Shown here one piece after another: positions 12,001 through 35,297 of a stretch of DNA of 41,229 nucleotides. This DNA comes from Patescibacteria group bacterium (GTDB lineage Bacteria; Patescibacteriota; WWE3; 0-14-0-20-40-13): contig JAHINB010000020.1 of NCBI GenBank assembly GCA_018896215.1, positions 1 to 41,229 of the forward strand, written 5' to 3'. The notes under the pieces were generated by a model, which saw only the letters and a list, made by a program, of their open reading frames with translations, was not told the DNA's origin and did not search any database. The position numbers were made by a program, and so were the translations under genes. How positions within the stretch are numbered: the first letter of the stretch is position 1; the number at the start of each line of letters is the position of its first letter.

Positions 12001-15000
12001 ACCAAACTGACATTGGCAGAATGTGCGGCATCGCCATTTATTGTTAATGTGTACGACCCAACCACTATTGAAGCGGTGGTGGCGACAGAAACAGTTTTTG
12101 CCGTCCCGGATGTCGAAGGAACAAAAGCTGTATTGGGTATTGTACAAGTAGCGTTAGCTGGACATCCAGAAATAGATGGAGTAATAGAGGTTGACCAACC
12201 ATTTAGAGCTGTAAAGGTTGCGGTATATGTTGTTGATGAACCCTGCACTACAGAACGAGAAGTTGGAGAGAGAGAAACAGAAAAATCTGGAATCGCTGTT
12301 GGGGGGATTACTTGCAAAGTCAGCCAAGCCGAATGGGGAATCGGTTTGCTTAAGGCTGGAGAGGTGGCGCTGGTTTGGAACATCAAATAATAAGTTCCAA
12401 GAGAGGCGCTACTCCCGGCGGAAAATGTGATTGTGGAGTTGCAATCGGGGGTGCAGGAAGATGGAGAGTAATTAACGCTTATACCGCTAGGGGGGTTGCC
12501 GGTTGCGTTTGCTGGCCACCAAACACTAGATCCTGGATCGGTGCTTTGCCATCCAATCAAACCAAATCCCACTGAAAGAGAGAAGTTATAGCTTGTAGAT
12601 GGAACTTGATCGGCGGTTCTTCCCAATGTCGTTTTTGACCCTCCCTGCTCTACGGAAACGCTGGTTGGATTGATCCAAAATGTGTAGTTTTTAACATGAG
12701 CGACGCTGGCGCAACTGGCGCTTCCTTCCACCCCAGAAACTAATAGATTTAAATCATAATCCGTTCCCGGAAGTCCTGTATTTCCCGACTGCGCTGTCCA
12801 GCGAGGAGTTGCCGATGCGGTACTGCTGTACGATCCGGCGCTGGCTGACCAAGTGTATGTTGGGTTAGTGATGCCTGTTACCGTGGCTTTTAGATCTAAA
12901 TAGTCTCGGGCGTAGGGATCCATTCCAGACAGGTTAGTGGAGCTGATAACGCATCCGCGAGACTGTGACACTATGAGAGTTAAATTGGCCGTTTTGCCTT
13001 CGTCAGTTGACAACCTTACATTATAGGATCCCCTTCCGGGAAAACTGACGCTAAATCTCGCTGTTCCGCTGGCTCCAGCAACCACTGCCGAGGCGGGAGA
13101 GCAAGATCCTCCGTTATCAACAGCACAATACACAGTCACATTGCTTGTCCAACCGTTGAGTGGAGTCAGAGTTGCGGTAAGAGTTTGCGCAGGATACCAA
13201 GTGTAGATTTCGCGCAGTGTAGTGTTGGTGCTGTCCCATTTCGCGGTCATGGTGTAGTCGGGAGTTGCAACAGAAATCACCGTTACTGGTGTAGTACAGT
13301 TAGCAAAGACGCCATTGCCATCCGTGACCTTAAGATTAACATCATAAGTTCCACTGGGAAGATTAACGGATGAGGCGTTTTTGGCAGTCCAAGTGGCTCC
13401 AGATAAAGAAGTACCGCTTAAGGTTCCTCCACTACTAGACCAGGTTGGAGTTAAACCTCCTACCCCTCCTGATGATGTTGCTGTAATAGTGGATACTCCT
13501 CCCGGAGGCACGCTAGTGGGACTTGCCGAAAGGGAACAGGAAGGAGGGTCTCCCACGGTTAAAGTTACGCTGGTTGAATGCGTGGAGTCTCCAGTAACTG
13601 TTATGGTGTAATCTAGTTTTGGAGTGTTGGCATTTGTCGCGACAGTTAAAGTTTGCTTTGCTAGGGCAGAAAGCGGTGTCAAAGACCCAGAGGCTATTGC
13701 CAAAGAGCAGGTTGGTTTATTTGATGAAGAAGATCCGGCAACGGAGCAGGTTGGACTTAAATTACCGCTAAATCCACCAGAAGGGGTATAAGTAATTTCG
13801 TAAGTTGTAGTGGCGCTTTGACCTATAGAACGAGTTGTCGGGCTTGCTGACATAGAGTAGGCTGGCGTGAGCGCTGGCGTTACTGTTATACCCCCAGTGC
13901 AGGTTGCGTAATTTGCCGAGTTGGCTGTTTCGTAAACTTTAAGTCCTAAATTAAACGATTGGGCGCTGGAAATATTAGGAGGAGTCCATGTTGAAGGGTT
14001 TCCCGTTACGGGATTCCAACTTCCCACGGGATCTCCAACTCCCAGAGGATTCCAGTTGTAGGTTACTGGCATGGATAAATCATCGGACGAGAAAGAGCCG
14101 GTTAGCCTGGAAGTTTGGGCTGTTGTGATTGAACTCGGGGCGGGAGAAACCCCGCAGGATTTTATCTTTGCCTTAATCGTTAGAGCTATATCCACATAGT
14201 GAGTGGCATCTGCTCTTATCCTGTATGCATAACCTCCAGGGGTTGCGCTCGTTGAGTTTGTGATGGAAAGTGTTCTATTTGTTCCAGGGCTTGCCGGAGG
14301 AACGAAAGAGTTTGTGTTAAATGAATATGTGGGTTTAGTTGCTCCCACGGGAGCCGTTACCGAAACAGTTGGGGTTATCGCTGTACTCCAGCCATTTGTT
14401 CCGGTAAAGTTTATATCGTAAGTAGTAGTATCCCCTTGATAAATGGTTCTGGAGGTTGGGTTTGCCGATAGCAATAAATTTGGTGTTGAGACAATACAGG
14501 TAGCTACTGTAAAAAACTGCTCTTTCGCCCCGATGTTTCCGACCGAATCTCTTGCGTATATCCAAACGGAGTGGCTCCCCGCGGACAGACCTGTAACCGT
14601 TTTTGTTGTGGAGAAGGAGTAAGTTGTAGCGTTTATCTCATCAATATTGCTTGCCGAATAAGAAAGAGAAGAATTTCCGCATCCCGTGTCCGAACCGCTC
14701 CAAGAAAGTGCTACTGATCCGTCGCTGTTTCCGGGGTTGGCGCAGGTTGGGGTGGCGTTTATAACCCCTATTGTCGGATGCGAAGTGTCAATTGTGTAAA
14801 CAGAATCTCCAGACCAGGATCCCCATAAAGAGGTGCTTTCTTTATACCGTGCTTTTATAGAGTAATTGCCATCGGGTTGCAGGGGATAGGAGGAACTTTG
14901 AGTAAAGGCGGAAATCACCCTACCATAAACTGCGTTATTGCTGTCCCAGCTGGTGTCTAGTTCCGTCCCGTTTGCGGTAAAACAACCCGAATTGCTTATA

Positions 15001-16154
15001 CTCCATACCCAGCTTGGGGTCGTGTCATTTGTACAAACCGCGCTTCCCGGGGTTGGGTAGAGATTAGATACAGAGGGGCGGGTCGCGTCTATCCCTACTG
15101 TAGCACTGTCGGAGCAGGTTCCGTAGGTAGTACCGCCATTATTGCTGTAGCAAACTTGAATGGAATCGCCACTTGTTCTGTCCAAGGCAGAGGTCCACGA
15201 AGTTAGCTCGCTATTAAAATATTCGGTAACTCCTCCCCAGCTTTTGATTATTTTGGTTTTGTTAATAGCGTTACAATATCCACTATACGAGTAAGATCCC
15301 CTAGTCCAAGTTGGTGTGGTATCTTCTGTGCAAGATGAGGCGGTAAATGTTGGAGCGGGAGGAGGCGAGTTGTTACAGACGGTGAATGGAGCAGAACAAA
15401 AGTTGTCCGCTTCGCTTTTTTCGTTGGTAATGGCATTAGTGGAATCAACCTTTATATAGTAAGTATGTGAACCTGTTGTGGAGACTGTTAATCCACTGAA
15501 TGTTTTTGTCGCACTAAACCCTTTCATAATTCCATCTACGGGAATACGAGATACATAAGAACAACTGGAAGTTTGGGGGTTGCAATCCAAAAAAATGTCG
15601 CCGGAAGATGCTCCGGCGTACGCCGATCCGATATTATTTATCGTTACGCTTGTAGTGTGAGTTTGGTTGAGGTAGGGATTGGCGGGAGATAAAACAACCG
15701 AATTGCAAGTGAGGTTGGGTCTCTTGCATTCGCTACTTAGCGTACAAAGATTGCTATAGCACGCACAACCGCCACCGGAACAAAGTGGTTGATTTTCATT
15801 TACTACACAGTTATCAACCGAATTGCAGGAGCTGTAGGAACAAGAAGCTGGGATGCTACATCCAGTACAATCGCTACCATCCCAAGTCTCGAGATAGAAG
15901 ACATTGTTAGAGCAAGAGGAACGACAATAAACCGTGAGGTCACACTTAAAACAATCACCATACCAAGGATCTGCTCCATAATCCAAGGCGCAAGTGGAGT
16001 TTGGAAACATGTCATACGCGAAACTGTCATAAGTACATGCCATTGTAGCAGTAGATGAGACTGCAAAAAAACAAAGCAAGATAAAAATAAAAACACACAA
16101 CCCCTTGAATTTTTTAAGGTAGCAAGAGTAGCTCGAGATTTGGGACAAAACCAT
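9060..16154 (-). CDS. Giant Ig-repeat surface protein (2364 aa)
   Basis: Layout: an N-terminal hydrophobic export segment (about 14-40); a Cys-rich module (about 40-150) with MFPNSTCALDYG and GDCFKCDLTVYC; CARDB-like and Ig-like domains; then many degenerate Ig/PKD-like repeats. Two recurring repeat types are CSLSASPTSVxPGGVSTxTA and a TxSVTxGxxTTY..GWSTxLSPTCSV type. A carboxypeptidase-regulatory-like domain lies near 2010-2080, and the C-terminal 250 residues are beta-rich (LILVINGNLVVSKDVDLIEATVIVVG). It is probably secreted and surface-exposed, involved in attachment. No sortase motif or C-terminal anchor is seen. It has a leaderless-type start. Long Ser/Thr/Gly/Pro-rich stretches make it the largest protein here. 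Confidence 0.85.
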   Translation of the reverse strand: MVLSQISSYSCYLKKFKGLCVFIFILLCFFAVSSTATMACTYDSFAYDMFPNSTCALDYGADPWYGDCFKCDLTVYCRSSCSNNVFYLETWDGSDCTGCSIPASCSYSSCNSVDNCVVNENQPLCSGGGCACYSNLCTLSSECKRPNLTCNSVVLSPANPYLNQTHTTSVTINNIGSAYAGASSGDIFLDCNPQTSSCSYVSRIPVDGIMKGFSATKTFSGLTVSTTGSHTYYIKVDSTNAITNEKSEADNFCSAPFTVCNNSPPPAPTFTASSCTEDTTPTWTRGSYSYSGYCNAINKTKIIKSWGGVTEYFNSELTSWTSALDRTSGDSIQVCYSNNGGTTYGTCSDSATVGIDATRPSVSNLYPTPGSAVCTNDTTPSWVWSISNSGCFTANGTELDTSWDSNNAVYGRVISAFTQSSSYPLQPDGNYSIKARYKESTSLWGSWSGDSVYTIDTSHPTIGVINATPTCANPGNSDGSVALSWSGSDTGCGNSSLSYSASNIDEINATTYSFSTTKTVTGLSAGSHSVWIYARDSVGNIGAKEQFFTVATCIVSTPNLLLSANPTSRTIYQGDTTTYDINFTGTNGWSTAITPTVSVTAPVGATKPTYSFNTNSFVPPASPGTNRTLSITNSTSATPGGYAYRIRADATHYVDIALTIKAKIKSCGVSPAPSSITTAQTSRLTGSFSSDDLSMPVTYNWNPLGVGDPVGSWNPVTGNPSTWTPPNISSAQSFNLGLKVYETANSANYATCTGGITVTPALTPAYSMSASPTTRSIGQSATTTYEITYTPSGGFSGNLSPTCSVAGSSSSNKPTCSLAIASGSLTPLSALAKQTLTVATNANTPKLDYTITVTGDSTHSTSVTLTVGDPPSCSLSASPTSVPPGGVSTITATSSGGVGGLTPTWSSSGGTLSGTSLSGATWTAKNASSVNLPSGTYDVNLKVTDGNGVFANCTTPVTVISVATPDYTMTAKWDSTNTTLREIYTWYPAQTLTATLTPLNGWTSNVTVYCAVDNGGSCSPASAVVAGASGTARFSVSFPGRGSYNVRLSTDEGKTANLTLIVSQSRGCVISSTNLSGMDPYARDYLDLKATVTGITNPTYTWSASAGSYSSTASATPRWTAQSGNTGLPGTDYDLNLLVSGVEGSASCASVAHVKNYTFWINPTSVSVEQGGSKTTLGRTADQVPSTSYNFSLSVGFGLIGWQSTDPGSSVWWPANATGNPPSGISVNYSPSSCTPDCNSTITFSAGSSASLGTYYLMFQTSATSPALSKPIPHSAWLTLQVIPPTAIPDFSVSLSPTSRSVVQGSSTTYTATFTALNGWSTSITPSISGCPANATCTIPNTAFVPSTSGTAKTVSVATTASIVVGSYTLTINGDAAHSANVSLVITQANRAPTCSITAPPSPVIVGSANTAQATASDPDGNPISYTWTSSAGSYSNTTTNPTTWTAPPVASSPDINLTVSDGSLTGTCTKPITVVNAPDFLMWASPASASVTKGSRSSHLVMYESIDGWNSALSPTCSVSGTSANKPTCTLSLPSVTPPGAQTLTVFTVSQTPNGTYTITVNASGTQSGTTRTHSTSVTVTVGDVPSCSLSASPTSVFPGGVSTVTATTAGGVGSLTPSWSASGGSLSGTSLAGATWTAKNASSVNLPSGTYDVRLTVTDTKGVSGGCTTPITVSNEPDFSVNIVESAIATTEGVNGSFSVNLRDGSSDWTVAVPLSCTVSPAGPVCNLNKLSEIPSITALTTGTISNTAGNSGAYTITVTAGPSTQSGYTRTHADSAGLTIGNGPDFTMTVAPATASVDKGQGSSYTISYVSVNGWSTALSPTCLVLGSLLNKPTCSLSPVSITPTGTQTLTVTTALATPSGTYTITVTATGTQSITRTHTVSPQITVLAPISCSVSPLTFSVITGQTYSSLTGTVLGNVLGVVQYSWGALGQFSNATGAVTNWTAKNSFGANLAIGSYGLQLTVTDSVRPIRTSTCPTTATVVAVTGSISGTVYYQPDQTSCSTSGASSFSGAPVTLVPASGSTQITTSNPSYSFSNLPLGDYTVSLTPPAEKTVTSSCGGLARAVTLTDGSNKTVDFVLNDLVPAPWFQVYGGDVNVNGQTAMDDLPPNKYFYATANNVSTIVGSFTNIGSQAFGVLTTQSFSGSTPDDLFVPSSSTGWSIFGSGAKPISFPALFDPNKSFGLLEDSATATSNIGDLSKGGIYKPTSSVSSLGNSLKNYKINGTNPAVAVILFNGDLTINERINKSSSSSSNTTLILVINGNLVVSKDVDLIEATVIVVGNNTTIVDGETGANDGRDKTLTISGGLYSSGDILINRDMSKVPGNGNLDPVLLVIYDPSPLVLSSQRELKEFKTSWVEIRN

Positions 16155-16257: not shown

Positions 16258-16593
16258 TTATGGGATGGTGCTACAGCCAGCACAATCACTACCATCCCAA
16301 GTCTCGAGATAGAAGACATTGTCAGAGCAAGAGAAACGACAATAAACCGTGAGGTCACACTTAAAGCAGTCGCCACGCCAGGGATCGACCCCGTAATCCA
16401 AGGCGCAAGTGGAGTTTGGAAACATGCCATACGCGTAAACGTAATGTCGTATGCTAACATCAAAAACGAGCGGGAACCACACTTTTGTGGGTGTGGTGGG
16501 GGCGGCGACAGTGGTGTTTGCGGGGGTTCCCACGCCCAGCAACACAAACGCCAGGACGACGATGAGAGTGAGTCGACCAAAGATTTTCTTCAT
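16258..16593 (-). CDS. Short secreted Cys-rich paralogue of the giant protein's N-terminus
   Basis: 111 residues. A clear signal peptide (about 1-31, KKIFGRLTLIVVLAFVLLGV) is followed by a module nearly identical to residues 45-100 of the giant protein: MFPNSTCALDYGVDPW, GDCFKCDLTVYC, NVFYLETWDGSDC. It stops right after CAGC, where the giant protein continues. It has a strong Shine-Dalgarno (AAGGAGGTGCATC-ATG) and the shared promoter at 16695-16733. It could be a truncated duplicate or a functional short secreted form; the intact start, signal and promoter favour expression. Confidence 0.75.
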   Translation of the reverse strand: MKKIFGRLTLIVVLAFVLLGVGTPANTTVAAPTTPTKVWFPLVFDVSIRHYVYAYGMFPNSTCALDYGVDPWRGDCFKCDLTVYCRFSCSDNVFYLETWDGSDCAGCSTIP

Positions 16594-20738: not shown

Positions 20739-20781
20739 AATACACCTCCTAAAGTGCATTTTGAGATTAGTGTTTGTATTA

Positions 20782-20845
20782 TAACAAGATTTAAGAAGAA
20801 ATACTAAAATATTTCGCTTTAGCGAAAGCGTTACATATTTTCACC
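20782..20845. repeat. Interspersed repeat, partial copy (C)
   Basis: AACAAGATTTAAGAAG.., the hairpin TTTCGCTTTAGCGAAA and GCGTTACATATTTT match the first 60 bases of the 95-bp repeats at 21696 and 27527. The copy overlaps the last codons of the CofE-like gene and, on the minus strand, ends in CTTGTTATAAT, which serves as the -10 of the peptide gene. Confidence 0.7.
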
Positions 20846-21640
20846 GAGTAAAACGAGGTGGGAATCTATACCACGCATATCGTTCTTTAGTTGCTCTGTG
20901 GCAATAAGGTCGGACAGCTTGCCATCCTTATCGGGATACTTGAAACCACGGATAAGAACTACAGGTAACCCCGCTTTACTTTGACCCATTAAAAGAGAGC
21001 CCGCTGCAGATATTTCATCGGCAAAGGAGATGTTTACATTTCGTTTTTTACCATAAAGATCAACTTCATCAACCGCTCCTCTAAGAACGGCGGGCATGCC
21101 TGCAACACCAATTGCAAGTCCGATGGAACCGACCCGATATCTAATACCTAATGAATCGTTAATAACCACACCTACTTTTTTACCAGTTGACTTGGCAATT
21201 GCATCGCTAATCTTTTTGGCGCTTTTATCTGGATTAAGTGGCAATAAACTTACCTTTTCTTCTTCTGGCTTTGCGGTGTTAGCACGGTCAATACCTCCAC
21301 TCGTGCAGATAAAGCCAAGGTTGTGAAGCGTTTCTACTACCCCAGGTTTTACATTAAGAATCTGCGACTCATGCATCATTAGTTCTATAATTCGTGCATC
21401 TTTGCCACTTTCTCGAGCAATTTCAAATGCTTTTGCTGAGGGTGTGATAGAAACAAGAGATACCAGACGCCCCTCCGCTTTAGATATAATTTTTGAAGTC
21501 ACTACAAGCACATCCTGGTTCTCAAAAGCAATGCCAGCGTCACTGGCACATTTTAAAATTATGGCACTAATATCATCACCTTCTTTAATTAAGGGAATGT
21601 TCGGAATTGCAATAAGTGTAATGGAATAAAGATTTTTCAT
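20831..21640 (-). CDS. CofE-like gamma-glutamyl ligase 1
   Basis: 269 residues of the coenzyme F420-0:L-glutamate ligase (CofE/FbiB N-terminal) family, which uses GTP to form amide bonds with glutamate. Family features are IKEGDDISAII, DVLVVTSKIISKAEGR, a glycine-rich STGKKVGVVINDSLG, RYRVGSIGLAIGVAG and ADEISAAGSLLMGQS. Length is typical. No other F420 gene lies in the window, and CPR bacteria are not known for F420 synthesis, so the acceptor may differ. The next gene downstream is the TNWRWE peptide. The last ten residues come from repeat sequence and differ from copy 2. The promoter with palindrome GTTACAGTAAC is at 21649-21680. Confidence 0.85.
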   Translation of the reverse strand: MKNLYSITLIAIPNIPLIKEGDDISAIILKCASDAGIAFENQDVLVVTSKIISKAEGRLVSLVSITPSAKAFEIARESGKDARIIELMMHESQILNVKPGVVETLHNLGFICTSGGIDRANTAKPEEEKVSLLPLNPDKSAKKISDAIAKSTGKKVGVVINDSLGIRYRVGSIGLAIGVAGMPAVLRGAVDEVDLYGKKRNVNISFADEISAAGSLLMGQSKAGLPVVLIRGFKYPDKDGKLSDLIATEQLKNDMRGIDSHLVLLGENM

Positions 21641-24252: not shown

Positions 24253-24396
24253 CTAATCACAGTCGCACTGTACACAGTCACATTTGCCGACATCACAGAA
24301 ATCGTTGTAGCAGTCCTCTTCGCATGAAGTTTGGGACGCCACCTGTGACGAGTCGCTCACGAGAATGCTCACAAAACCGAAATCTTGACTGATCAT
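24253..24396 (-). CDS. Cys/Asp-rich candidate precursor peptide C (47 aa)
   Basis: ATG after AAAGGAGAGCGAAG. Leader-like ISQDFGFVSILVSDSSQVAS is followed by a core with seven Cys (25, 29, 34, 39, 41, 44, 46) ending CDCVQCDCD. Leader sequence differs from A and B while the CD-rich core is alike, as in multi-precursor RiPP clusters. It lies 27 bp after the radical SAM/RRE gene, the classic position for a precursor. Confidence 0.78.
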   Translation of the reverse strand: MISQDFGFVSILVSDSSQVASQTSCEEDCYNDFCDVGKCDCVQCDCD

Positions 24397-24423
24397 CTTC
24401 GCTCTCCTTTCAAAATACCTTGT

Positions 24424-25737
24424 TCATGACACCTCGATGATCTTCTTTTGATGCAGAACAGAGATCATCATTGCTGCCTCTGCTAATCCGATACCAAACC
24501 TTCTTGGCAAATCCTCTAATAGAATGCTAGCCTCCTTTCTGATTTCAAGAAACATCTCGTAGCTTCCATGTTTTAGGAAGGCTATCTCAACTTTCCCAAC
24601 GCTAGAGCTAACTATACCACCAAAATTCTCGTTACGAAAGCAAACACCACCAACAACCCTGAAGCGCGAAGGCGGAGTCGCTCTTAGCGTCTTCGTAGGT
24701 GTACCAATCACATTGTGAGAACCACTTGCAAGTGGGTCCATGCCCCTAGCACGCGGATCAAACTTAGATGCCACACGACAACCACCACCACAGATATAGA
24801 AGGACGGACATTCTATACATTCCTGTGGTAATAGCGAGCCATCACGCAGGTCCGACATTCGTTCCCAAATAATCTTGAGTGATTCATCCAATATATTGCC
24901 GTAAACTTTGCTGCTGTGTGGACAACTTCGAACAGATCCATCAGCACCAATGGCGCAAGTTGTAGTACCAGCACTACACCGCTTATTGATTAAAGATGAA
25001 TACTTACTCATATCACCTATAAAACAGAGCGGGTAGGGTTCTAGAACACCAACCCTGAGATTGGTATTTCTCGATAACTCCACAAGAGTGTCAAGACTTC
25101 TATGTATTGCATCCTCGGTTGGTAGCACTAACACGAAGTCCCCCAAAATATCTGGGTGTCCCATTCTCGTTGCAAAAAAGGATCTTGCACCAAGTTTTGC
25201 AGCCAGCATTCCTGTTTGATAGATCATATCTTGGTTTTGAGATGTTAGTACCATACTTACACCAACGGAGAAACCAACCTCCTTCGCGCACAAAATTCCT
25301 TGTAGGGATTTTTCGTAAGCTCCAACAGCCCCTACAATCCTTTCGTGAGTTGCGACATCGTAAGACGATAGAGATGTCAAGATACTACGAAGACCAGCTA
25401 CTTTAAGTTCCTTAAGTAGTGGGGTATCTACATGTGTCAAATTAGAGTTCAGATCGCAAGGGATGCCAAAACCACCCAACAGCTTTAGCAGGTGTAAGGT
25501 TAGATTTTGCACACCTCTAGAAAGAAGAGGCTCTCCTCCAGTTATCGTACAAAAGAAAACTTCCGCATCAGCCAAGGCACTCGCTATCTTGGTGAGAGTT
25601 TCTTGATTCGTAACACGAGGAAGAGCAACAGATCTCTCTTGACGCCAAAAATTGTAACAGTAACAGCACAGTTGGTTACAAGCCTCTGTAACCTCCACTT
25701 GCACCGATATAGGTGCTGACAGTGTTCTGTAAAGCAT
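24424..25737 (-). CDS. Radical SAM/SPASM peptide maturase with C-terminal PqqD-like (RRE) domain
   Basis: 437 residues. The radical SAM cluster motif is C20-NQL-C24-CY-C27. The core has TGGEPLLS, and the SPASM domain has CSAGTTTCAIGADGSVRSC and CIECPSFYICGGGC. The last 80 residues (GVCFRNENFGGIVSSS.. to IIEVS) look like a PqqD/RRE fold that binds leader peptides. SPASM enzymes with an RRE install thioether or C-C links in ribosomal peptides. A strong Shine-Dalgarno (AAGGAGGTGAATCC) and promoter P3 precede it. It heads an operon: maturase, peptide C, two metallopeptidases, peptides B and A, terminator. Confidence 0.88.
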   Translation of the reverse strand: MLYRTLSAPISVQVEVTEACNQLCCYCYNFWRQERSVALPRVTNQETLTKIASALADAEVFFCTITGGEPLLSRGVQNLTLHLLKLLGGFGIPCDLNSNLTHVDTPLLKELKVAGLRSILTSLSSYDVATHERIVGAVGAYEKSLQGILCAKEVGFSVGVSMVLTSQNQDMIYQTGMLAAKLGARSFFATRMGHPDILGDFVLVLPTEDAIHRSLDTLVELSRNTNLRVGVLEPYPLCFIGDMSKYSSLINKRCSAGTTTCAIGADGSVRSCPHSSKVYGNILDESLKIIWERMSDLRDGSLLPQECIECPSFYICGGGCRVASKFDPRARGMDPLASGSHNVIGTPTKTLRATPPSRFRVVGGVCFRNENFGGIVSSSVGKVEIAFLKHGSYEMFLEIRKEASILLEDLPRRFGIGLAEAAMMISVLHQKKIIEVS

Positions 25738-26061: not shown

Positions 26062-26841
26062 TTATATTATACCACGCATATCGTTCTTTAACTGATCTGT
26101 GGCGATAAGATCAGGGAGTTTACCATCCTCATTTGGATATTTAAATCCACGAATAAGAACTACTGGCAACCCAGCCTTGCTCTGACCCATTAAAAGAGAG
26201 CCTGAAGCGGATATTTCATCGGCAAAAGAAATGTTTACATTTCGTTTCTTGCCATAAAGATCAACCTCATCAACTGCTCCTTTAAGAACAGCAGGCATGC
26301 CGGCAACACCAATTGCAAGCCCAATAGAACCAACTCGATATCTAATACCTAAAGAATCGTTAATAACCACACCTACCTTTTTACCAGTTGACTTGGCAAT
26401 TGCATCACTAATGATCCTGGCACTTTCGTCTGGATTGATTGGCAACAAGCTTACTTTTTCCTCTTCTGGTTTTGCAGTGTTGGCACGGTCAATACCTCCA
26501 CTCGTACAGATAAAACCAAGATTGTGAAGCGTTTCGACGACACCCGGTTTTACATCAATAATTTGTGCCTCTTGTATCATTAGTTCCACAATCCTTGCAT
26601 CCTTGCCACTTATACCAGCAATCTCGAGAGCTTTTGTTGAGGGTGTTACGGAAGCGAGGGATACCAAACGACCCTCCGCCTTAGAAATAATTTTTGAAGT
26701 CACTACGAGCACATCCTTATCCTCAAAAACAATACCAGCATTGCTAACACACTTGAGGATAATAGCACTAATATCATCACCTTCTTTGATTAAGGGAATG
26801 TTTGGAATTGCAGTAAGTGTAATGGAATAAAGATTTTTCAT
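26062..26841 (-). CDS. CofE-like gamma-glutamyl ligase 2
   Basis: 259 residues, closely related to copy 1 over its whole length, with all the family blocks (DVLVVTSKIISKAEGR, GGIDRANTAKPEEE, GVVINDSLGIRYRVGSIG, ADEISASGSLLMGQS). It lacks the last ten residues of copy 1, ending at DMRGII where the promoter of the peptide gene begins. The shorter C-terminus is a natural variation or small deletion. Promoter and palindrome are as in copy 1. The conserved pairing CofE then TNWRWE peptide is the key context. Confidence 0.85.
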   Translation of the reverse strand: MKNLYSITLTAIPNIPLIKEGDDISAIILKCVSNAGIVFEDKDVLVVTSKIISKAEGRLVSLASVTPSTKALEIAGISGKDARIVELMIQEAQIIDVKPGVVETLHNLGFICTSGGIDRANTAKPEEEKVSLLPINPDESARIISDAIAKSTGKKVGVVINDSLGIRYRVGSIGLAIGVAGMPAVLKGAVDEVDLYGKKRNVNISFADEISASGSLLMGQSKAGLPVVLIRGFKYPNEDGKLPDLIATDQLKNDMRGII

Positions 26842-27487: not shown

Positions 27488-27526
27488 CTTATACTATTTT
27501 TGTAGTATTCCCGTCAAATCCTATAG
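27488..27526 (-). promoter_or_regulatory. Shared-type promoter P4
   Basis: Minus strand: CTATAGGATTTGACGGGA, -35 TTGACG (27512-27517), 18 bp, -10 TATAAG (27488-27493). It now points into the transposase fragment and probably belonged to a gene since lost. Confidence 0.65.
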
Positions 27527-27620
27527 CAAGATTTGAGAAGAAATACTAAAATATTTCGCCTCAGCGAAAGCGTTACATATTTTTATGTGTCTACACATAA
27601 AAATCTATAGTTTGCGTGGG
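27527..27620. repeat. Interspersed 95-bp repeat, copy B
   Basis: It matches 21696-21791 almost throughout, including the ATTTTTATGTGT/ACACATAAAAAT palindrome (27579-27604) and CTATAGTTTGCGTGGGG. It is directly joined to promoter P4. The promoter motif and this repeat share the AAATCTTG(C/T)TAT junction at several sites. Confidence 0.75.
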
Positions 27621-27657
27621 GCTAGGAGTACCTTTTGTGGTGATATAATAAGAAAAT

Positions 27658-28686
27658 ATGAAAATTGTAAGATTAATAAAGAAGAGCAGAGGTGTTTTAA
27701 ATGGTGTCTCGTTTTTAGTTAACCAGTCAATAGTAATCGATGCGGGGTTCTCAATGAAGGAAAATATTGGATTTTATTCCCAAATAAAGGATATTGGAAA
27801 TTGGGTTTGTGGTCAGAGAATTCCTAATTGGAAATACGTTCCAAGTAGTTTTAATTTATTTATTTCGCATGCGCACGAAGACCATTTCGCAGGCATATAT
27901 TCTATCCCCCACGATAAGAAATATAATCTATTTACTAGCAAACAGACCTACAAAATAATGGTGGAAAAGAGTAAACAACTTGGGTTAGCTTTTCCCAAAC
28001 CAAGCAAAGTAGTTTTTTTAAACAACCTGAAAGAGTATGTTTTTGGCGAGATTACGATAGTCCCCCGTTTAGTAAAACATAACATTCCAGGAAATTATCT
28101 GTTTTTGATATCTTGTGGTGGCAAAAAAATCGTGTATTCTCCCGATTATAATGAGCCCTTTTGGCGAAAAATATCATTAGATGGTGGAGATACATTGATT
28201 ACCGATTTTCTCCCAGAGCTTCCAAAATACATTAAGGGAAGGTTTGACGGAACAAAAATAAAGAGATTTATACACGACAACAGACAACTAATTATAGTTG
28301 ATCATGGATGGGATATTAGTTTCATTTTAAGTATCTTAAAATTGGCCGAAGCAGATGAAAAAAAGATATTTCTATCGTTAACAATAGCCACTAATTTAAA
28401 GGTTGTGGGGGTAAGAGTTTCTAAATACGCTGTGTTGGAAAAAGTGTTTATTAATAAGAAGAAATTTATTATTATCGGTGATTTAAGCGATTATAAAACT
28501 GTTCGTGACAAATATCCTAATATTGCAAGTATCTCGAACAATTATTCACTTAACTTAATGTTTAGAAACCACAAGAAAACTCCATTTTTAAATGTTTTTA
28601 AAGGAGGCCATTTATCAGGACAATTTCTAAAAAAATATTTAAATGGTAAACAAGTAAAAGTGATTAAAGTTAACTATTACAGATAA
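27658..28686 (+). CDS. MBL-fold metallohydrolase
   Basis: 342 residues with HAHEDH at 71-76, the metal-binding signature of the metallo-beta-lactamase fold. Later ligands fit VKHNIPGNY, VYSPDYNEPF and VDHGWD, and GGHLSGQFL near the C-terminus resembles the RNase J/CPSF branch, though the beta-CASP domain is incomplete. A leaderless start: TATAAT lies eight bases before the ATG. Converges with the nucleotidyltransferase gene (10-bp overlap). It could be a nuclease or a small-molecule hydrolase. Confidence 0.75.
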   Translation: MKIVRLIKKSRGVLNGVSFLVNQSIVIDAGFSMKENIGFYSQIKDIGNWVCGQRIPNWKYVPSSFNLFISHAHEDHFAGIYSIPHDKKYNLFTSKQTYKIMVEKSKQLGLAFPKPSKVVFLNNLKEYVFGEITIVPRLVKHNIPGNYLFLISCGGKKIVYSPDYNEPFWRKISLDGGDTLITDFLPELPKYIKGRFDGTKIKRFIHDNRQLIIVDHGWDISFILSILKLAEADEKKIFLSLTIATNLKVVGVRVSKYAVLEKVFINKKKFIIIGDLSDYKTVRDKYPNIASISNNYSLNLMFRNHKKTPFLNVFKGGHLSGQFLKKYLNGKQVKVIKVNYYR

Positions 28687-29369
28687 TGCTTTTTTGTGTA
28701 ATCTATTTGATATCTAAATTCTTTTAAAATTTTTTTCAGGTTGCCCAATTTCCACATTCTTTCATAACTTTTAGAAAGATTTTTGTCAATATTATTTAGT
28801 TCACCCAACATATGCTTGGCGGAAGTGTAAGGCGAATTAAATGACTGAATAAATCCTCGGATAAAGAAAAAAGAGTTGGTCAAAGCAATAGCAGTTGCTT
28901 CGGATAACCGATTATTTTTTTCATATCTAATGGCGTCGTTTAAACCATCTTCGGCATTATTTATTCGACTTTTTAGGTTTATATCTAATTTAAAATTATT
29001 GGCGATCTCTTTTATTTCTATAATCATGTTTTTAGGATCGTATAGAGGTACAGCTTCTTTAGCAAAACAAGCATCGACAACAATACCATCACTAATGTTT
29101 TTTTTAATTTTATCTATATTGGTATATATTAAAGATATTTTGTGATCTTTAAATACATCTTTTGACATATTGTCTTGCTGGTCATTAGACAATTTTTTAT
29201 TACTAACAATAAGCAAATCAATGTCCGAATCCAAACACGCTTGGTTGCGTGCAACCGATCCAATTAAAAAAACTCCTTCAACGCTTGGTTGCTTTTTAAG
29301 ATTCTCTATAACATACTCATTTGCGAGTTTTGTTAAATGTTCATTAATTTTTTCTAATTTAAATTTCAT
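28677..29369 (-). CDS. Nucleotidyltransferase with C-terminal HEPN-like helical domain
   Basis: 230 residues. The N-terminal pol-beta-type motif LIGSVARNQACLDSDIDLLIV gives GS-x9-D-x-D. The C-terminal 110 residues are helical (SEATAIALTNSFFFIRGFIQ), like HEPN or four-helix partner domains. It starts inside the end of the ClpP-like gene (11-bp overlap), so it is the last gene of the maturase operon of part B. It might nucleotidylate a peptide, protein or small molecule. Confidence 0.75.
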   Translation of the reverse strand: MKFKLEKINEHLTKLANEYVIENLKKQPSVEGVFLIGSVARNQACLDSDIDLLIVSNKKLSNDQQDNMSKDVFKDHKISLIYTNIDKIKKNISDGIVVDACFAKEAVPLYDPKNMIIEIKEIANNFKLDINLKSRINNAEDGLNDAIRYEKNNRLSEATAIALTNSFFFIRGFIQSFNSPYTSAKHMLGELNNIDKNLSKSYERMWKLGNLKKILKEFRYQIDYTKKHYL

Positions 29370-29907
29370 AATTTTTTGCAGAACTTATATGGTCAACAAT
29401 GCCTAATTTAATCGCTTCTTGCGGAGAAATTAAGATTCCTTTTTTTCCTTTGATTTTAGCTATGTCAAGCTTTCCTTTAGTATATTTTATTAGCAACTCT
29501 CGCAACCTTGTTGTTTGATAATCGGTCTCTTCGGATAATTCTTCGGCTACTGTACCTTTAATTTCTGTTCTACCAAAAGGTAAGTGCAAATGAATCATTG
29601 TATTTTCGGTAATGTACCGCTGACCAATTTTTCCACTACTTAGCAAGAGTACAGCCATACTTGCCACTACGCCTATTCCAACGGTGCTAATTTTTACCCC
29701 ACACAAACTCATAAAATCGTGAATTGCCAATGTATCTACCACCCTACCTCCTGCCGAATTAATAAACAACATTATAGGTTTATGTGCATCGTCGATTAAA
29801 AAAGTATTAATATCTTTTATTATCTCCTTAGAACTAAGGGGATTGATACTATCAAATAGATATACACTTCTGGTAATATTTTGCGATATGTTTATTTCGT
29901 TTGACAT
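29359..29907 (-). CDS. ClpP-like serine protease
   Basis: 182 residues of the ClpP/crotonase fold. FINSAGGRVVDTLAIHDFM corresponds to the oxyanion and substrate loop of ClpP, Ser83 in GVVASMAV is the nucleophile, His106 in NTMIHLHLP is the general base, and Asp near 175 (LGIVDHI) completes the triad. It is not the housekeeping ClpP (SAGG instead of SPGG, short). Coupled by 16-bp overlap to the SPASM-like gene and 11 bp to the nucleotidyltransferase gene. A leader-peptide protease role is the favoured inference. Confidence 0.83.
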   Translation of the reverse strand: MSNEINISQNITRSVYLFDSINPLSSKEIIKDINTFLIDDAHKPIMLFINSAGGRVVDTLAIHDFMSLCGVKISTVGIGVVASMAVLLLSSGKIGQRYITENTMIHLHLPFGRTEIKGTVAEELSEETDYQTTRLRELLIKYTKGKLDIAKIKGKKGILISPQEAIKLGIVDHISSAKNYEI

Positions 29908-30635
29908 AGGTAGTCCTGATTCATTAAATTACTACTAGCTAAACTTCTAGCCTGACAACAATTTGGGCAAGTGATAAGTTGTTTAAATTTGTTGTAATTG
30001 TGGATTATTTCCTTAACTGAGTTTGTGTAAATATTTCCAAGTAAATACTTTGAATTGCACAAAGCAACACAAGGGTAAAAATTACCCTTGGTGTCGCTGC
30101 TAATTAATCTGGAGTTCACGATACCACATACTTTGCTGGAAGTTTTTTTACGCGACCGGTAATTGACAAATTCTTTATCCTTAATAACCCATGTTACATC
30201 TTCAACATCGTAAGTTAGTTTTTCTAGAAGTAACTTAGATTCCAATTTTGGATTTTTAAATAGGGTGTATACGCTTACAGCAACCGCCGAAAAACTGCCC
30301 TTATTTTTCTTGAGCCAATTTATATCTTTCGCTTTTTCAATTTCGGCAATTAGATTTATATTCTTATACTTTGCAAGTTCTTCTAGACCAAAATTAGAAA
30401 ATTGATTACAGCTGTCTACAATGTAATAATTTGATGTAGAAAGACCAATCTCATTAATAAGATCCGCTATCTTTTTGAAACGAAGAGGGTGTCCTCCAAT
30501 CCCGATCCATTTAAAGTGCTCTTCGACTTTTTTAATGAGTTTGATTATATCTTTGATAGTTACAATATGGGTTGGTTTACAGTGAACTCGATAATCATTT
30601 TTGCCTAAGTTTAGTTCTAATAAATAATCTTCCAT
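29892..30635 (-). CDS. SPASM-like protein lacking the radical SAM cysteines
   Basis: 247 residues. The C-terminal part (CGIVNSRLISSDTKGNFYPC, GNIYTNSVKEII, CPNCCQ) is a SPASM/Twitch-like cluster domain, but the N-terminal half has no CxxxCxxC. It keeps radical-SAM barrel-like features (WIGIGGHPLRFKKIADLI corresponds to the GGEP region). It is probably a catalytically altered partner of the upstream true radical SAM enzyme. Overlaps the PqqD-like gene by 19 bp and the ClpP-like gene by 16 bp. Confidence 0.7.
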   Translation of the reverse strand: MEDYLLELNLGKNDYRVHCKPTHIVTIKDIIKLIKKVEEHFKWIGIGGHPLRFKKIADLINEIGLSTSNYYIVDSCNQFSNFGLEELAKYKNINLIAEIEKAKDINWLKKNKGSFSAVAVSVYTLFKNPKLESKLLLEKLTYDVEDVTWVIKDKEFVNYRSRKKTSSKVCGIVNSRLISSDTKGNFYPCVALCNSKYLLGNIYTNSVKEIIHNYNKFKQLITCPNCCQARSLASSNLMNQDYLCQTK

Positions 30636-30847
30636 AGTAATAGTTCTTTTATAAATTTGGTTGTATCGCTTTTCTTAATTAAAGCATCTTCTAGACTATT
30701 CTCGCATAGTCTATTGACGATTTCCCAACTATACTTGTTAAGTTCCAAAATATTATCAGTTTCGGGATTAAATAAAAATATTTTTTCCCTGCATTCTCTT
30801 TTTACTAAGTTGGAAGTTAATTTATACTTTATATTTATCATATTCAC
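30617..30847 (-). CDS. Stand-alone PqqD-like peptide-recognition protein
   Basis: 76 residues matching the PqqD/RRE pattern: KRECREKIFLFNPETDNILELNKYSWEIVNRLCENS, a strand-strand-helix module with a final helix (KFIKELLLWKIIY). RRE proteins bind the leader of a precursor peptide and present it to the radical SAM enzyme. The gene starts 26 bp inside the end of the radical SAM gene and overlaps the next by 19 bp. This is the strongest single sign that the operon modifies a ribosomal peptide. Confidence 0.82.
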   Translation of the reverse strand: MNMINIKYKLTSNLVKRECREKIFLFNPETDNILELNKYSWEIVNRLCENSLEDALIKKSDTTKFIKELLLWKIIY

Positions 30848-31859
30848 AAAAGGGCTTGTGTGGTTGCACTTTTTTGTAAACTGAATAGGTCAATGCTTTA
30901 CACGCACTATCGCAAATAGGAGGCAGTTCACACAAATCACATTTTTTTGGAACCTTATATGCAGAAAACCTAATAAACCACTCGTTATCGAATTTATTTA
31001 ATTTGCCCTCAACAATGTTCCCAATTTTGGCTTCGGGAAATCCAAGTAACATATTACATGGATAGATATCCCCATTTGGTACAACTGAAATTTGACCCAA
31101 TCCTGCGGCGCAGGTTCTACCGTAAATATCATTTGGTAATACTACATCTAATTTGGTTTTTAGATTTTTGATCTCATCATAACACCTCTTTTTTTCTCTA
31201 AAGTTCATGTAATAATCTTTTTTATACTTTCCCCTTCCCAAAGGGATCATTCCACCAAAAGAGACCATTTCCACACCTAGTTTTTCCGCCAATTTTACAA
31301 ATTCTACAATTTCATGATTATTGTTTTTTGTTAGAGTCATCCCCAACATTACATGAAGCCCATCGTTAACGAATTTATCAATATTGTCCACAATTAATTT
31401 AAAATTTGTATTTCCTCGCACTTCATAGTAGGTCTCCTTGCATGCTGCATCGAGACTTACTTGTAAAATGTGCTTATACCTTAAATTTACCAGTGCTTTA
31501 TTGATAGATTTGTTATAGATTAGACCATTTGTGCTGGTGCTTCGATACACAACATTGTATTTTTCACAGTTATTAGCCAAGGCGATCAGTTTATCAGCTT
31601 TTAAAAAAGGCTCGCCTCCTAGCACATTAATACGAAATATTCCTTTATTCTTACAAAATTTGAGTAAATCAATGGGGTTAATATTAATATCCGATCTGTC
31701 AAGTTCGTCTGGTACAAAACAATAAGAACACCTCAGATTACACCCAAGGGTAACGAACCAAGTCAGTTCAAAAGGGAAAAAACCATCCTCAAAAGCCTCT
31801 GGGTCAATATTAGTTTTAAGTAATTTTGTTCTAATTTTTTTAAAAGTGAGAGACGACAC
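30822..31859 (-). CDS. Radical SAM/SPASM peptide maturase
   Basis: 345 residues. The cluster motif is C40-NLR-C44-SY-C47, GGEPFL follows, and the SPASM domain has CAAGLGQISVVPNGDIYPCN, GNIVEGKLNKF and CDLCELPPICDSAC. The SPASM auxiliary clusters mark peptide or protein-modifying members such as PqqE-like and sactipeptide/thioether enzymes. It starts at GTG (31859), six bases after the stop of the 47-residue peptide; AATAAGGTG is a weak ribosome site. First enzyme gene of the operon. Confidence 0.88.
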   Translation of the reverse strand: MSSLTFKKIRTKLLKTNIDPEAFEDGFFPFELTWFVTLGCNLRCSYCFVPDELDRSDININPIDLLKFCKNKGIFRINVLGGEPFLKADKLIALANNCEKYNVVYRSTSTNGLIYNKSINKALVNLRYKHILQVSLDAACKETYYEVRGNTNFKLIVDNIDKFVNDGLHVMLGMTLTKNNNHEIVEFVKLAEKLGVEMVSFGGMIPLGRGKYKKDYYMNFREKKRCYDEIKNLKTKLDVVLPNDIYGRTCAAGLGQISVVPNGDIYPCNMLLGFPEAKIGNIVEGKLNKFDNEWFIRFSAYKVPKKCDLCELPPICDSACKALTYSVYKKVQPHKPFCEYDKYKV

Positions 31860-31865
31860 CTTATT

Positions 31866-32009
31866 TTACCTTACTAGTTGAGCTTTTTTGGATTTCTCAA
31901 TCCTCGCTTTACTTTCTCTTATCTCCGCATTAGATGTTGGTAATGGACATCCATCTTTGCCATAACAACCAACAACTATTGGTCTTACATACAATTTTTG
32001 TTTTTGCAT
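31866..32009 (-). CDS. 47-aa candidate precursor peptide of the part B operon
   Basis: MQKQKLYVRPIVVGCYGKDG continues with CPLPTSNAEIRESKAR and a basic C-terminus. Cys15 and Cys21 flank the Gly-rich YGKDG, and VV-G-C-G-C pairs resemble precursors of SPASM enzymes. Located immediately before the maturase gene on the same strand. No Shine-Dalgarno, but a good promoter (32045-32073) ends 36 bp before the ATG. No named family recognised; core location is unknown. Confidence 0.68.
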   Translation of the reverse strand: MQKQKLYVRPIVVGCYGKDGCPLPTSNAEIRESKARIEKSKKAQLVR

Positions 32010-32044
32010 AGCTGCATAATGTAAACTAACTTATAATATAATTA

Positions 32045-32073
32045 TATATATACTAAAGTGCGAAAGTTGTCAA
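32045..32073 (-). promoter_or_regulatory. Promoter of the part B operon
   Basis: Minus strand: TTGACA (32068-32073), 17 bp, TATATA (32045-32050). It overlaps the stop codon of the 23-residue peptide gene. Confidence 0.7.
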
Positions 32074-32141
32074 GATTCAAGTGTGCGTTGTATGTTTGTG
32101 GTATAGGTGTTGTTACCAAAACGGAAGAGATTCTTTTTCAT
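32070..32141 (-). CDS. 23-aa peptide gene with strong ribosome site
   Basis: ATG after AAAGGAGGTGCGAA. It encodes MKKNLFRFGNNTYTTNIQRT ending LES; small, basic and polar, with no Cys. The Shine-Dalgarno matches those of the candidate precursors, and the gene lies directly upstream of the part B promoter. It could be a leader-type peptide, a precursor, or a regulatory short reading frame. Not recognised. Confidence 0.5.
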   Translation of the reverse strand: MKKNLFRFGNNTYTTNIQRTLES

Positions 32142-32156
32142 TTCGCACCTCCTTTC

Positions 32157-32186
32157 CCATAACAAGATTTAAGAAGAAATACTAAA
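32157..32186. repeat. Interspersed repeat, short copy (D)
   Basis: CATAACAAGATTTAAGAAG then AAATACTAAAT matches the beginning of the 95-bp repeat. Here it encodes the last residues of the Ppx-like protein (FSISS) and its stop. Confidence 0.6.
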
Positions 32187-33071
32187 TTCTTGTCGAACGA
32201 CTCCATGAACCAGATTGCTATCGGAGGGAATTATAGTTTTTATTTTATACTTTTCAAAAACAGCTTCCGCTATGGCGCTACAAGCCCTAGCACCATGCAT
32301 CCACTTGGGGTTTTGAGGCATCAGCTCTTCCAATTCTTTTAAAGAAACTTTAGAAAATATCTCGCTGTTTCTTTTAGAAAAATTGTCGATATCTATTTTT
32401 TGCGGGTGATCCTCATCTTTGAAAATGTCGTTTTGAGAGATGTTATATCCTGCAATTTTCATGTATGTTAATTCTCCTCCGTTGTAAAAGGCGGTTTCTA
32501 CTTTATTTTTAAGGTTGGGAAGAGCTTTTTTTACAAAAAGTTTAATCTCGTCAATTTTTATTTTCGAAAACTGATCGTTTATTCCTACGAATTTGGACAA
32601 TACTGTTCCTACCCCCAAATCTAAATTATACCTTTCTATGGCTTCTCTGCCGTACATAACAACAAGCTCTGTTGATCCCCCACCTATATTTAGGAGAAGT
32701 AAAGGGCAATCCAAAGTGCATTTTCCAACCAAAGCGCTTTCGAGATAAAAATTCTCCAAATCTTGAGAGATAATATTTAGATAGATACCTGTATTCTCAA
32801 AGATTTCATCAATGAATTGGCGTCTAGCCTGCGGGGGAAGTTTTCTATGGAGGGCTGTAGCGTAGATTTTTATTTTACAACCTTTGTGCTTGTTTTTTAT
32901 TTCGAAAAGAAGTTCTAAAAGCTCTTTTTTACTGGATTGAGATATTCCGCTATCTTCCGTGAAACCATCTTTAAAAGAAATGGAGCGAATCAAGAGAGGA
33001 TGTAGCCTGTTGTCCTTTTGCTTGTAAACTTTGACTGTAGATGAACCTAAATCTATCAGTATTTTTTCCAT
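32169..33071 (-). CDS. Ppx/GppA-like phosphatase (ASKHA fold)
   Basis: 300 residues from the internal ATG at 33071 (alternative start 33086). ILIDLGSSTVKVY is the phosphate-1 loop and LLNIGGGSTELVV the signature of exopolyphosphatase/guanosine pentaphosphatase. The C-terminus (KWMHGARACSAIAEAVFEKY) completes the actin-like fold. Shorter than Ppx, lacking the HD domain. It could act on polyphosphate or (p)ppGpp-type nucleotides. Promoter P5 lies upstream. Confidence 0.82.
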   Translation of the reverse strand: MEKILIDLGSSTVKVYKQKDNRLHPLLIRSISFKDGFTEDSGISQSSKKELLELLFEIKNKHKGCKIKIYATALHRKLPPQARRQFIDEIFENTGIYLNIISQDLENFYLESALVGKCTLDCPLLLLNIGGGSTELVVMYGREAIERYNLDLGVGTVLSKFVGINDQFSKIKIDEIKLFVKKALPNLKNKVETAFYNGGELTYMKIAGYNISQNDIFKDEDHPQKIDIDNFSKRNSEIFSKVSLKELEELMPQNPKWMHGARACSAIAEAVFEKYKIKTIIPSDSNLVHGVVRQEFSISS

Positions 33072-33097
33072 TAGCCGAATTAACACTTAAAATTCAC

Positions 33098-33948: not shown

Positions 33949-34281
33949 TTAAGATACAGGTATCCCGTACTTTTTTATTTCGACACAAAGAGGATCGAAA
34001 GGGTCGTTAAATCTACCAGGGTTCATGGCAATTGGTTCTATGTTTGGACTTGTTCTCCATGCTATCTTGAACAAATCAGAAGTTTCGGAAAATTCGTCTT
34101 TTCCAAAAGCCCTAGACACAACACAGACATCGATATCGCTATTTTTTGATGCGGTACCCTTGGCGTAAGATCCAAAAAGAATGAGCCTTTCCGGTCTTAT
34201 TCCAGCAGTTAATAAACCTTTTTTAAAGGCCTTTATGGCTTTTTTGGTTTCTTTTTCCCTTAAATTTGTTCTAGTATCCAT
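33949..34281 (-). CDS. MNT-type nucleotidyltransferase
   Basis: 110 residues with LILFGSYAKGTASKNSDIDVCVV, giving GS-x9-SD-x-D of minimal nucleotidyltransferases. Downstream partner of a HEPN-domain gene, which it overlaps by 22 bp. In MNT/HEPN modules the MNT protein nucleotidylates the toxin and blocks its RNase activity. The C-terminal MNPGRFNDPFDPL suits the usual tail. Confidence 0.8.
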   Translation of the reverse strand: MDTRTNLREKETKKAIKAFKKGLLTAGIRPERLILFGSYAKGTASKNSDIDVCVVSRAFGKDEFSETSDLFKIAWRTSPNIEPIAMNPGRFNDPFDPLCVEIKKYGIPVS

Positions 34282-34642: not shown

Positions 34643-34948
34643 ATGAGTATGGGATTAAGATACGACAACAAAAGCATTGATATTCTTTGTCAAAAATACG
34701 GAATTAGGTTTCTTGGTGTTTTTGGTTCTCGAGCGAGAGGCGATTTTAAATCTACAAGCGACACGGATGTTCTTATCAGATACGCTACAAACTCCTCCGT
34801 CAGAAGCATACTAGATCACATAGCGGTACAAAATAACCTATCTATTATTTTTGGTGGAAAAGTAGATTTGGTAGAGGAGTCTGGTTTAAATAAAGACATT
34901 GCTCCTAATGTAAAAAAGGAGCTGGTTGCCATCTATGAAAACCGTTAG
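34643..34948 (+). CDS. MntA-like nucleotidyltransferase (antitoxin)
   Basis: 101 residues with FGSRARGDFKSTSDTDVLIRY, the minimal nucleotidyltransferase motif. It is followed, with 14-bp overlap, by a DUF86/HepT gene, the standard type VII toxin-antitoxin order. MntA-type enzymes transfer AMP to HepT. Leaderless: TAATAT lies about nine bases before the ATG. Confidence 0.85.
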   Translation: MSMGLRYDNKSIDILCQKYGIRFLGVFGSRARGDFKSTSDTDVLIRYATNSSVRSILDHIAVQNNLSIIFGGKVDLVEESGLNKDIAPNVKKELVAIYENR

Positions 34949-35297
34949 CGTATATCTTAAACATATTTTAGAAGCCTGCGAAAAAGTAGAGATGATGGTG
35001 CAAGATTTGGATAAAGAAGATTTTATGGATAAGGATTGGATTACTCGAGAAGCAATACTTAGACAGTTAGAAATAATTGGAGAAGCGGTAAAAAGAATTC
35101 CCAATGAGTTTAAGTTAAAATACTCCGAAGTTTCTTGGAAGGATATTTCCGGTATGAGAGATTACTTGGTACATGAGTATTTTGCAGTCAACTACGAAAT
35201 GGCTTGGGAAACAGCAATTTCCGATATCCCGAAATTAAAAAAGAAGATAGTCGAGATTGCACTAAAAGAGAATATTAAAATTTCATTAATACCCTAA
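34935..35297 (+). CDS. HepT-like toxin (DUF86, HEPN RNase)
   Basis: 120 residues from the ATG at 34935. Helical DUF86 protein with the catalytic RX4H motif at R-DYLV-H (MRDYLVHEYF), plus IGEAVKRIPNEF. The start lies inside the end of mntA. It belongs to HEPN ribonucleases, inactive when nucleotidylated by MntA. An in-frame TTG at 34926 is an alternative start. Confidence 0.85.
   Translation: MKTVSVYLKHILEACEKVEMMVQDLDKEDFMDKDWITREAILRQLEIIGEAVKRIPNEFKLKYSEVSWKDISGMRDYLVHEYFAVNYEMAWETAISDIPKLKKKIVEIALKENIKISLIP

Follow-up and report, generated by a model that had tools for sequence, protein, structure and literature searches.

This analysis concerns an operon of six minus-strand genes (28677-32009) in a 41,229-nt stretch of contig JAHINB010000020.1, which is called the window here and to which all position numbers refer. 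The operon is likely to serve peptide maturation of the type found in ribosomally synthesized and post-translationally modified peptides (RiPPs). The six genes and their order had been named in the original prediction, and all six frames were found on the minus strand as it had described them:

31866..32009, minus strand: putative precursor peptide, 47 aa, MQKQKLYVRPIVVGCYGKDGCPLPTSNAEIRESKARIEKSKKAQLVR (coding score, position in operon)
30822..31859, minus strand: radical S-adenosylmethionine (SAM)/SPASM maturase, 345 aa (Pfam, NCBIfam, PDB; cysteine positions)
30617..30847, minus strand: stand-alone protein resembling PqqD and the RiPP recognition element (RRE), 74-76 aa, with an ATG at 30841 (Pfam, RRE profile)
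29892..30635, minus strand: partner with a degenerate radical SAM fold and a SPASM domain, 247 aa (Pfam, local profile)
29359..29907, minus strand: ClpP-like serine protease, 182 aa (Pfam, alignment with ClpP)
28677..29369, minus strand: nucleotidyltransferase of the Pol-beta/MNT superfamily with a C-terminal extension, 230 aa, motif GSVARNQACLDSDIDLL (Pfam, motif)

The five genes for enzymes and the recognition protein overlap their neighbors by 11-26 nt (20 instead of 26 if the PqqD-like protein starts at its ATG), as in a translationally coupled operon, and 6 nt separate the end of the peptide gene from the start of the radical SAM gene.

The maturase matched the Pfam Radical_SAM (58 bits) and SPASM (23.3 bits) models. 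Its radical SAM cluster motif, CNLRCSYC, is complete (C40/C44/C47), and so are the seven SPASM cysteines, C250...GX4-C268, C307x2Cx5Cx3C320 (with C310 and C316) and C338, so that the enzyme carries the whole pattern CxxxCxxC, CX9-15GX4C and CX2CX5CX3C...C of radical SAM/SPASM proteins. The best curated relatives, at 92-97 bits and far under the family cut-offs, were WgkB, PapB and MftC; the similarity extended over the full length for PapB (NF047865, 96.5 bits, cut-off 340) and MftC (TIGR03962, 91.6 bits, cut-off 265), and the PqqE model of NCBIfam scored 61.6 of 381 bits. Relatives in the PDB were 5wgg and 5v1q, which we take to be CteB and SuiB, and PqqE (6c8v). Judged by these matches, the protein belongs with SPASM enzymes that resemble peptide maturases, but to none of the named subfamilies.

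The partner had been described as SPASM-like but devoid of CxxxCxxC, and this description was borne out: the motif is absent and the SPASM domain is present (Pfam, 23.8 bits). When its SPASM region was compared with a local radical SAM/SPASM profile it scored 21.7 bits, and the best of 1,000 shuffles scored 9.0. Upstream and colinear, the GIGGHPLRF stretch (GGHP) replaces the GGEP motif, although this stretch alone was non-significant. Because CxxxCxxC is absent but six or seven cysteines of the SPASM part are kept, including C170...GX4-C189, C223x2C226 and C244, the partner is, by its motifs, a degenerate radical SAM/SPASM protein, possibly one in which a cluster is still bound.

The PqqD-like protein was tested with a local RRE profile that combined MftB and PqqD with eight similar proteins of the phylum. 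It scored 13.7 bits (p~3e-6), compared with a maximum of 10.0 in 5,000 shuffles, and it was thus recognized as RRE-like in this targeted test, though it stays under the Pfam cut-off. Few genomes of the phylum (9 of 286) have a PqqD match above that cut-off. A stand-alone PqqD acting in trans as the RRE for PqqE is established (PMC8326336).

The peptide gene has a codon score of 0.18 bits/codon, which lies above all 91 of 91 spurious open reading frames (ORFs) of 35-70 codons and within the upper quarter of true gene pieces. As the first gene of the operon it gives the arrangement general to RiPP loci, a short precursor gene beside a modifying enzyme. Near the N-terminus of the peptide a YxxPxV motif begins at Y7; 1% of shuffled sequences had YxxPx[LIVM] among residues 1-20. 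A YxxP-type motif is likewise present in the RRE-bound leaders of lasso peptide precursors. The peptide has two cysteines, Cys15 and Cys21, and ends in a basic 20-residue tail. Its CX3D motif (Cys15-Asp19), which was seen in 4% of shuffles, corresponds to the target motif of PapB (PMC9413430). Both motifs are pointers and not proof.

The ClpP-like protein was correctly called in the original prediction and proved to be a divergent ClpP paralogue with a complete catalytic triad. It matched the Clp protease family with E=3e-30, and the Ser, His and Asp residues in VASM, HLP and GIVD aligned with those of housekeeping ClpP, as in a catalytic ClpP. Its identity was 31% to the copy in the tig-clpP locus of the same genome and 32-36% to other ClpP proteins of the phylum, and the closest relative reached about 39% over the aligned part. 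About 18 residues are missing from its start, and with them the axial N-terminal segment, and KGKKG replaces DMDRD, the Asp-Arg oligomerization sensor of the genome's own tig-linked ClpP. Both features of the canonical unfoldase-docked tetradecamer, the axial segment and the sensor, are therefore missing by comparison with the genome's own and other ClpP proteins. From ClpP structure-function knowledge we infer that unfoldase docking may have been lost and that peptides might enter freely.

The nucleotidyltransferase matched Polbeta/NTP_transf_2 in Pfam (34-37 bits), and its GS...DSDIDLL motif is complete; its relatives were generic. It may act in product modification or in self-protection.

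Our preferred explanation, which we hold to be probable with some reservation, is that the operon is a horizontally acquired RiPP-type peptide-maturation cassette with the 47-residue peptide as the precursor of its product. The elements of the maturase operon described in the original prediction are in place, namely a precursor-like peptide, a complete radical SAM/SPASM enzyme, a stand-alone PqqD-type RRE, a cluster-less SPASM partner and a divergent ClpP paralogue with an intact triad. In the proposed pathway, the PqqD-like protein would take up the N-terminal part of the peptide (KLYVRPIVV), the putative leader, and present it to the radical SAM/SPASM enzyme, which would cross-link or oxidize residues of the GCYGKDGC segment, for instance by forming a thioether between Cys and Asp (CX3D) or a linkage to Tyr16. 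The catalytically incomplete SPASM partner could serve the maturase as a scaffold or as an additional Fe-S conduit for electrons. The ClpP-like protein, without its ATPase-docking N-terminus, would then trim the leader from the modified peptide unaided by an unfoldase, and the nucleotidyltransferase might finally modify the product or confer self-protection. Gene order, overlaps, domain identities and motif states are observed, whereas each chemical step, the division into leader and core and the functions of the ClpP-like protein and the nucleotidyltransferase, which the original prediction had named as leader protease and tailoring enzyme, are inferred. The further proposal that an unfoldase-free ClpP paralogue is a dedicated leader peptidase in a radical SAM pathway with a catalytically dead radical SAM partner in an ultra-small bacterium, and so represents a new class of RiPP protease, is tentative and rather doubtful.

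The radical SAM, partner, ClpP-like and peptide genes and the PqqD family model, though not the nucleotidyltransferase, served as queries in protein synteny searches for relatives across 286-379 genomes of the phylum; 45 genomes of the class were added for the radical SAM gene, and GTDB contigs, IMG/VR, plasmids and phages for a selection of the genes. The best radical SAM match (31%, genome G348) lay beside a second radical SAM gene and a different gene set and was no relative of the cassette, and weak matches of the partner in genomes G337 and G231 were unrelated ORFs.

Several results weigh against the precursor-and-maturase explanation. No relative of the cassette was found in the phylum, class, GTDB contig, IMG/VR, plasmid and phage searches, so that with no second copy the peptide and the gene linkage lack comparative support and have to be judged from anatomy; among 361 genomes of the phylum no homologue of the peptide was found. 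No transporter or immunity gene is present in the operon. As no family cut-off was reached by the maturase, its chemistry cannot be named. The Pfam score of the PqqD-like protein was 12.7 bits (E=0.17), below the cut-off; over 24,736 Pfam models this E value equals p~7e-6 for a single named model, and the single-model value is apt because the family had been named beforehand. AlphaFold2 models of the PqqD-like protein (single sequence, pLDDT 51) and of the partner (4 alignment rows, pLDDT 40) were unusable and were set aside.

SPASM enzymes with protein substrates exist, and the operon might accordingly modify a protein, either its own ClpP-like protein or another cellular one, in the manner of sulfatase- or quinohemoprotein-maturing SPASM enzymes, the 47-aa frame being a leader ORF or incidental. 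The peptide gene without a Shine-Dalgarno sequence, and without a homologue as noted, would agree with this explanation, to which we give a low probability, since the adjacent PqqD-type RRE suggests that the enzyme acts on a short ribosomal peptide and since the 47-residue frame has gene-like codon statistics, stands first in the operon and ends just before the radical SAM gene.

Slightly less probable is a cofactor pathway resembling those of pyrroloquinoline quinone (PQQ) and mycofactocin, in which the peptide would be degraded to a small redox molecule, the ClpP-like protein, the nucleotidyltransferase and a nearby metallo-beta-lactamase (MBL)-fold hydrolase would carry out later steps, and no export would be needed. 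The similarity of the maturase to MftC and PqqE, the lack of a transporter and the position of the MBL-fold hydrolase within the same AT-rich unit are consistent with such a pathway. However, the MBL protein resembles RNase J/Z and not PqqB, and no cofactor-dependent dehydrogenase was seen beside the operon. Furthermore, the precursor of the mycofactocin type ends in its modified residues, whereas here the basic tail follows.

A defense or toxin-type system, with the nucleotidyltransferase as effector or antitoxin and a viperin-like radical SAM part, is very improbable, although the radical SAM protein matched PADLOC pVip (55.6 bits) and the nucleotidyltransferase weakly matched HalB and MntA, because the former match is confined to the radical SAM core (33-184) of an enzyme with a complete SPASM domain and the latter are confined to the generic catalytic motif, with 27 and 26 bits against much higher cut-offs of 190 and 60. 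Viperin (pVip) identity of the maturase was dropped, as viperin-type proteins are without SPASM and the match was to the core only.

The probable acquisition of the cassette from elsewhere is suggested by its base composition and by a repeat at its edge. Features around the operon are as follows:

32039..32074, minus strand: hexamers resembling a promoter (TTGACA ... TATATA/TATAAT), identified by eye immediately 5' of the peptide gene
27658..28686, plus strand: MBL-fold hydrolase with HAHEDH, convergent to the operon, within the AT-rich unit (Pfam)
32156..32191, plus strand: dispersed repeat at the right edge, truncating a Ppx/GppA-type gene
27520..27620, plus strand: copy of the repeat at the left edge, in the same orientation

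The operon lies in an AT-rich unit of 4.6 kb (27556-32155) with a G+C content of 32.3%, compared with 40.3% in the rest of the contig and 37.5-45.3% at ten other loci of the genome. The repeat has further copies at 20778 and 21691, and the genome holds others on contigs C3, C8 and C10, among them a tandem 65-nt pair on C8. The repeat, AAGATTTRAGAARAAATACTAAA, is followed by a TTTCGC...GCGAAA hairpin in most copies seen and borders island segments. The Ppx/GppA-type gene (32169-33086, minus strand; listed with L069:7955-9226) is cut by the repeat at its 3' end after VVRQEF. In relatives this gene has about 420 codons, and the two inspected (G225 and G233) have about 115 more residues, which form a C-terminal domain; in the rest of the genome the missing part was seen only in a 33% paralogue. 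Insertion or recombination at a repeat is the probable route by which the AT-rich unit arrived and truncated the gene, and because the edge repeat truncates this gene the operon was probably acquired horizontally.

The link of the MBL-fold hydrolase to the operon is unproven. It was considered as a candidate PqqB, for which no relevant match was obtained, and its only match in the PDB was a weak one to RNase J.

Upstream of the peptide gene the hexamers are TTGACA and TATATA, spaced by 17 nt, with TATAAT 4 nt further. A promoter scan placed this site outside its rules and counted sites in the region at chance (shuffle) level, and the hexamer pair, which stands in AT-rich DNA, is only suggestive. 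The original prediction had extended the operon to 32141, a position that lies outside the 47-aa gene and at which another ORF, of 23 codons, begins (MKKNLFRFGNNTYTTNIQRTLES; 32073-32141, minus strand). This ORF, at the edge of the AT-rich island, has a strong Shine-Dalgarno sequence, AAAGGAGGTG, and is without codon support.

Elsewhere in the window another maturase cluster (24253-25737, minus strand) encodes a radical SAM/SPASM protein whose C-terminus is RRE-like, together with a 47-aa peptide rich in Cys and Asp, SCEEDCYNDFCDVGKCDCVQCDCD; each of the two has a strong Shine-Dalgarno sequence, and a peptidase-like gene with an HELSH motif follows. Two closely similar F420-0:gamma-glutamyl-ligase (CofE-like) genes (20831-21640 and 26062-26841, minus strand) represent a local duplication, and an integrase-core gene adjoins one of them. 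An MNT/HepT toxin-antitoxin pair (34643-35297, plus strand), another MNT-type gene (33949-34281) and a repetitive, secreted-looking protein of 2364 aa (9060-16154, minus strand) with a short partial copy (16258-16593) were also observed.

The genome comprises 772 kb, compared with 0.4-1.4 Mb in its relatives, which fits an organism of the candidate phyla radiation (CPR)/Patescibacteria type. Bacteria of this kind, with their small genomes, are regarded as poor producers of natural products. RiPP clusters (graspetides) do occur in CPR bacteria (PMC8939145). If the maturation proposal is correct, a compact operon for a modified peptide, carried on seemingly foreign DNA, would offer a candidate signal, weapon or cofactor of a small-genome cell, and the pair of radical SAM and pseudo-radical SAM proteins would be a compact test case for the role of catalytically incomplete SPASM partners. 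Literature searches brought up no relevant paper on ClpP in RiPP clusters of the radical SAM type. Should it prove to be the leader protease, the ClpP-like protein would represent a type of RiPP protease not found in the literature searched.

Among known systems, housekeeping ClpP shares its fold and Ser/His/Asp triad with the ClpP-like protein, which differs in lacking the axial segment and the Asp-Arg sensor and in being encoded in a maturase operon. In GeoRSP, too, a SPASM protein accompanies the radical SAM/SPASM enzyme; this SPASM-only member is without the radical SAM cluster motif, and the system has a PqqD partner. Curated models with SPASM-only partners thus exist (GeoRSP_SPASM), but the partner described here falls below that cut-off, the GeoRSP models (TIGR04303/TIGR04304) scoring 52.5 of 400 and 13.2 of 300 bits, and we know of no ClpP or nucleotidyltransferase in GeoRSP. 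The maturation of freyrasin, a ranthipeptide, by PapB is similar in the whole-length likeness of the maturase and in the CX3D motif of the precursor, whereas there is one CX3D here versus six, the operon is different and the score is far below 340. The pseudomycoidin lasso cluster provides a precedent for a nucleotidyltransferase gene (PsmN) in a RiPP cluster, where it was associated with the attachment of a hexose to a lasso peptide that is phosphorylated (PMC9266682), but no lasso cyclase is encoded in the operon here. Finally, the PQQ (PqqA-PqqD-PqqE) and mycofactocin (MftA-MftB-MftC) systems have in common with the operon a short precursor, a stand-alone PqqD-type RRE and a separate radical SAM/SPASM enzyme with seven SPASM cysteines, to which the cassette described here adds a cluster-less SPASM partner, a ClpP-like protease and a nucleotidyltransferase. 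This six-gene combination was found nowhere else in the collections searched, and it is best read as a RiPP-type cassette of new composition.

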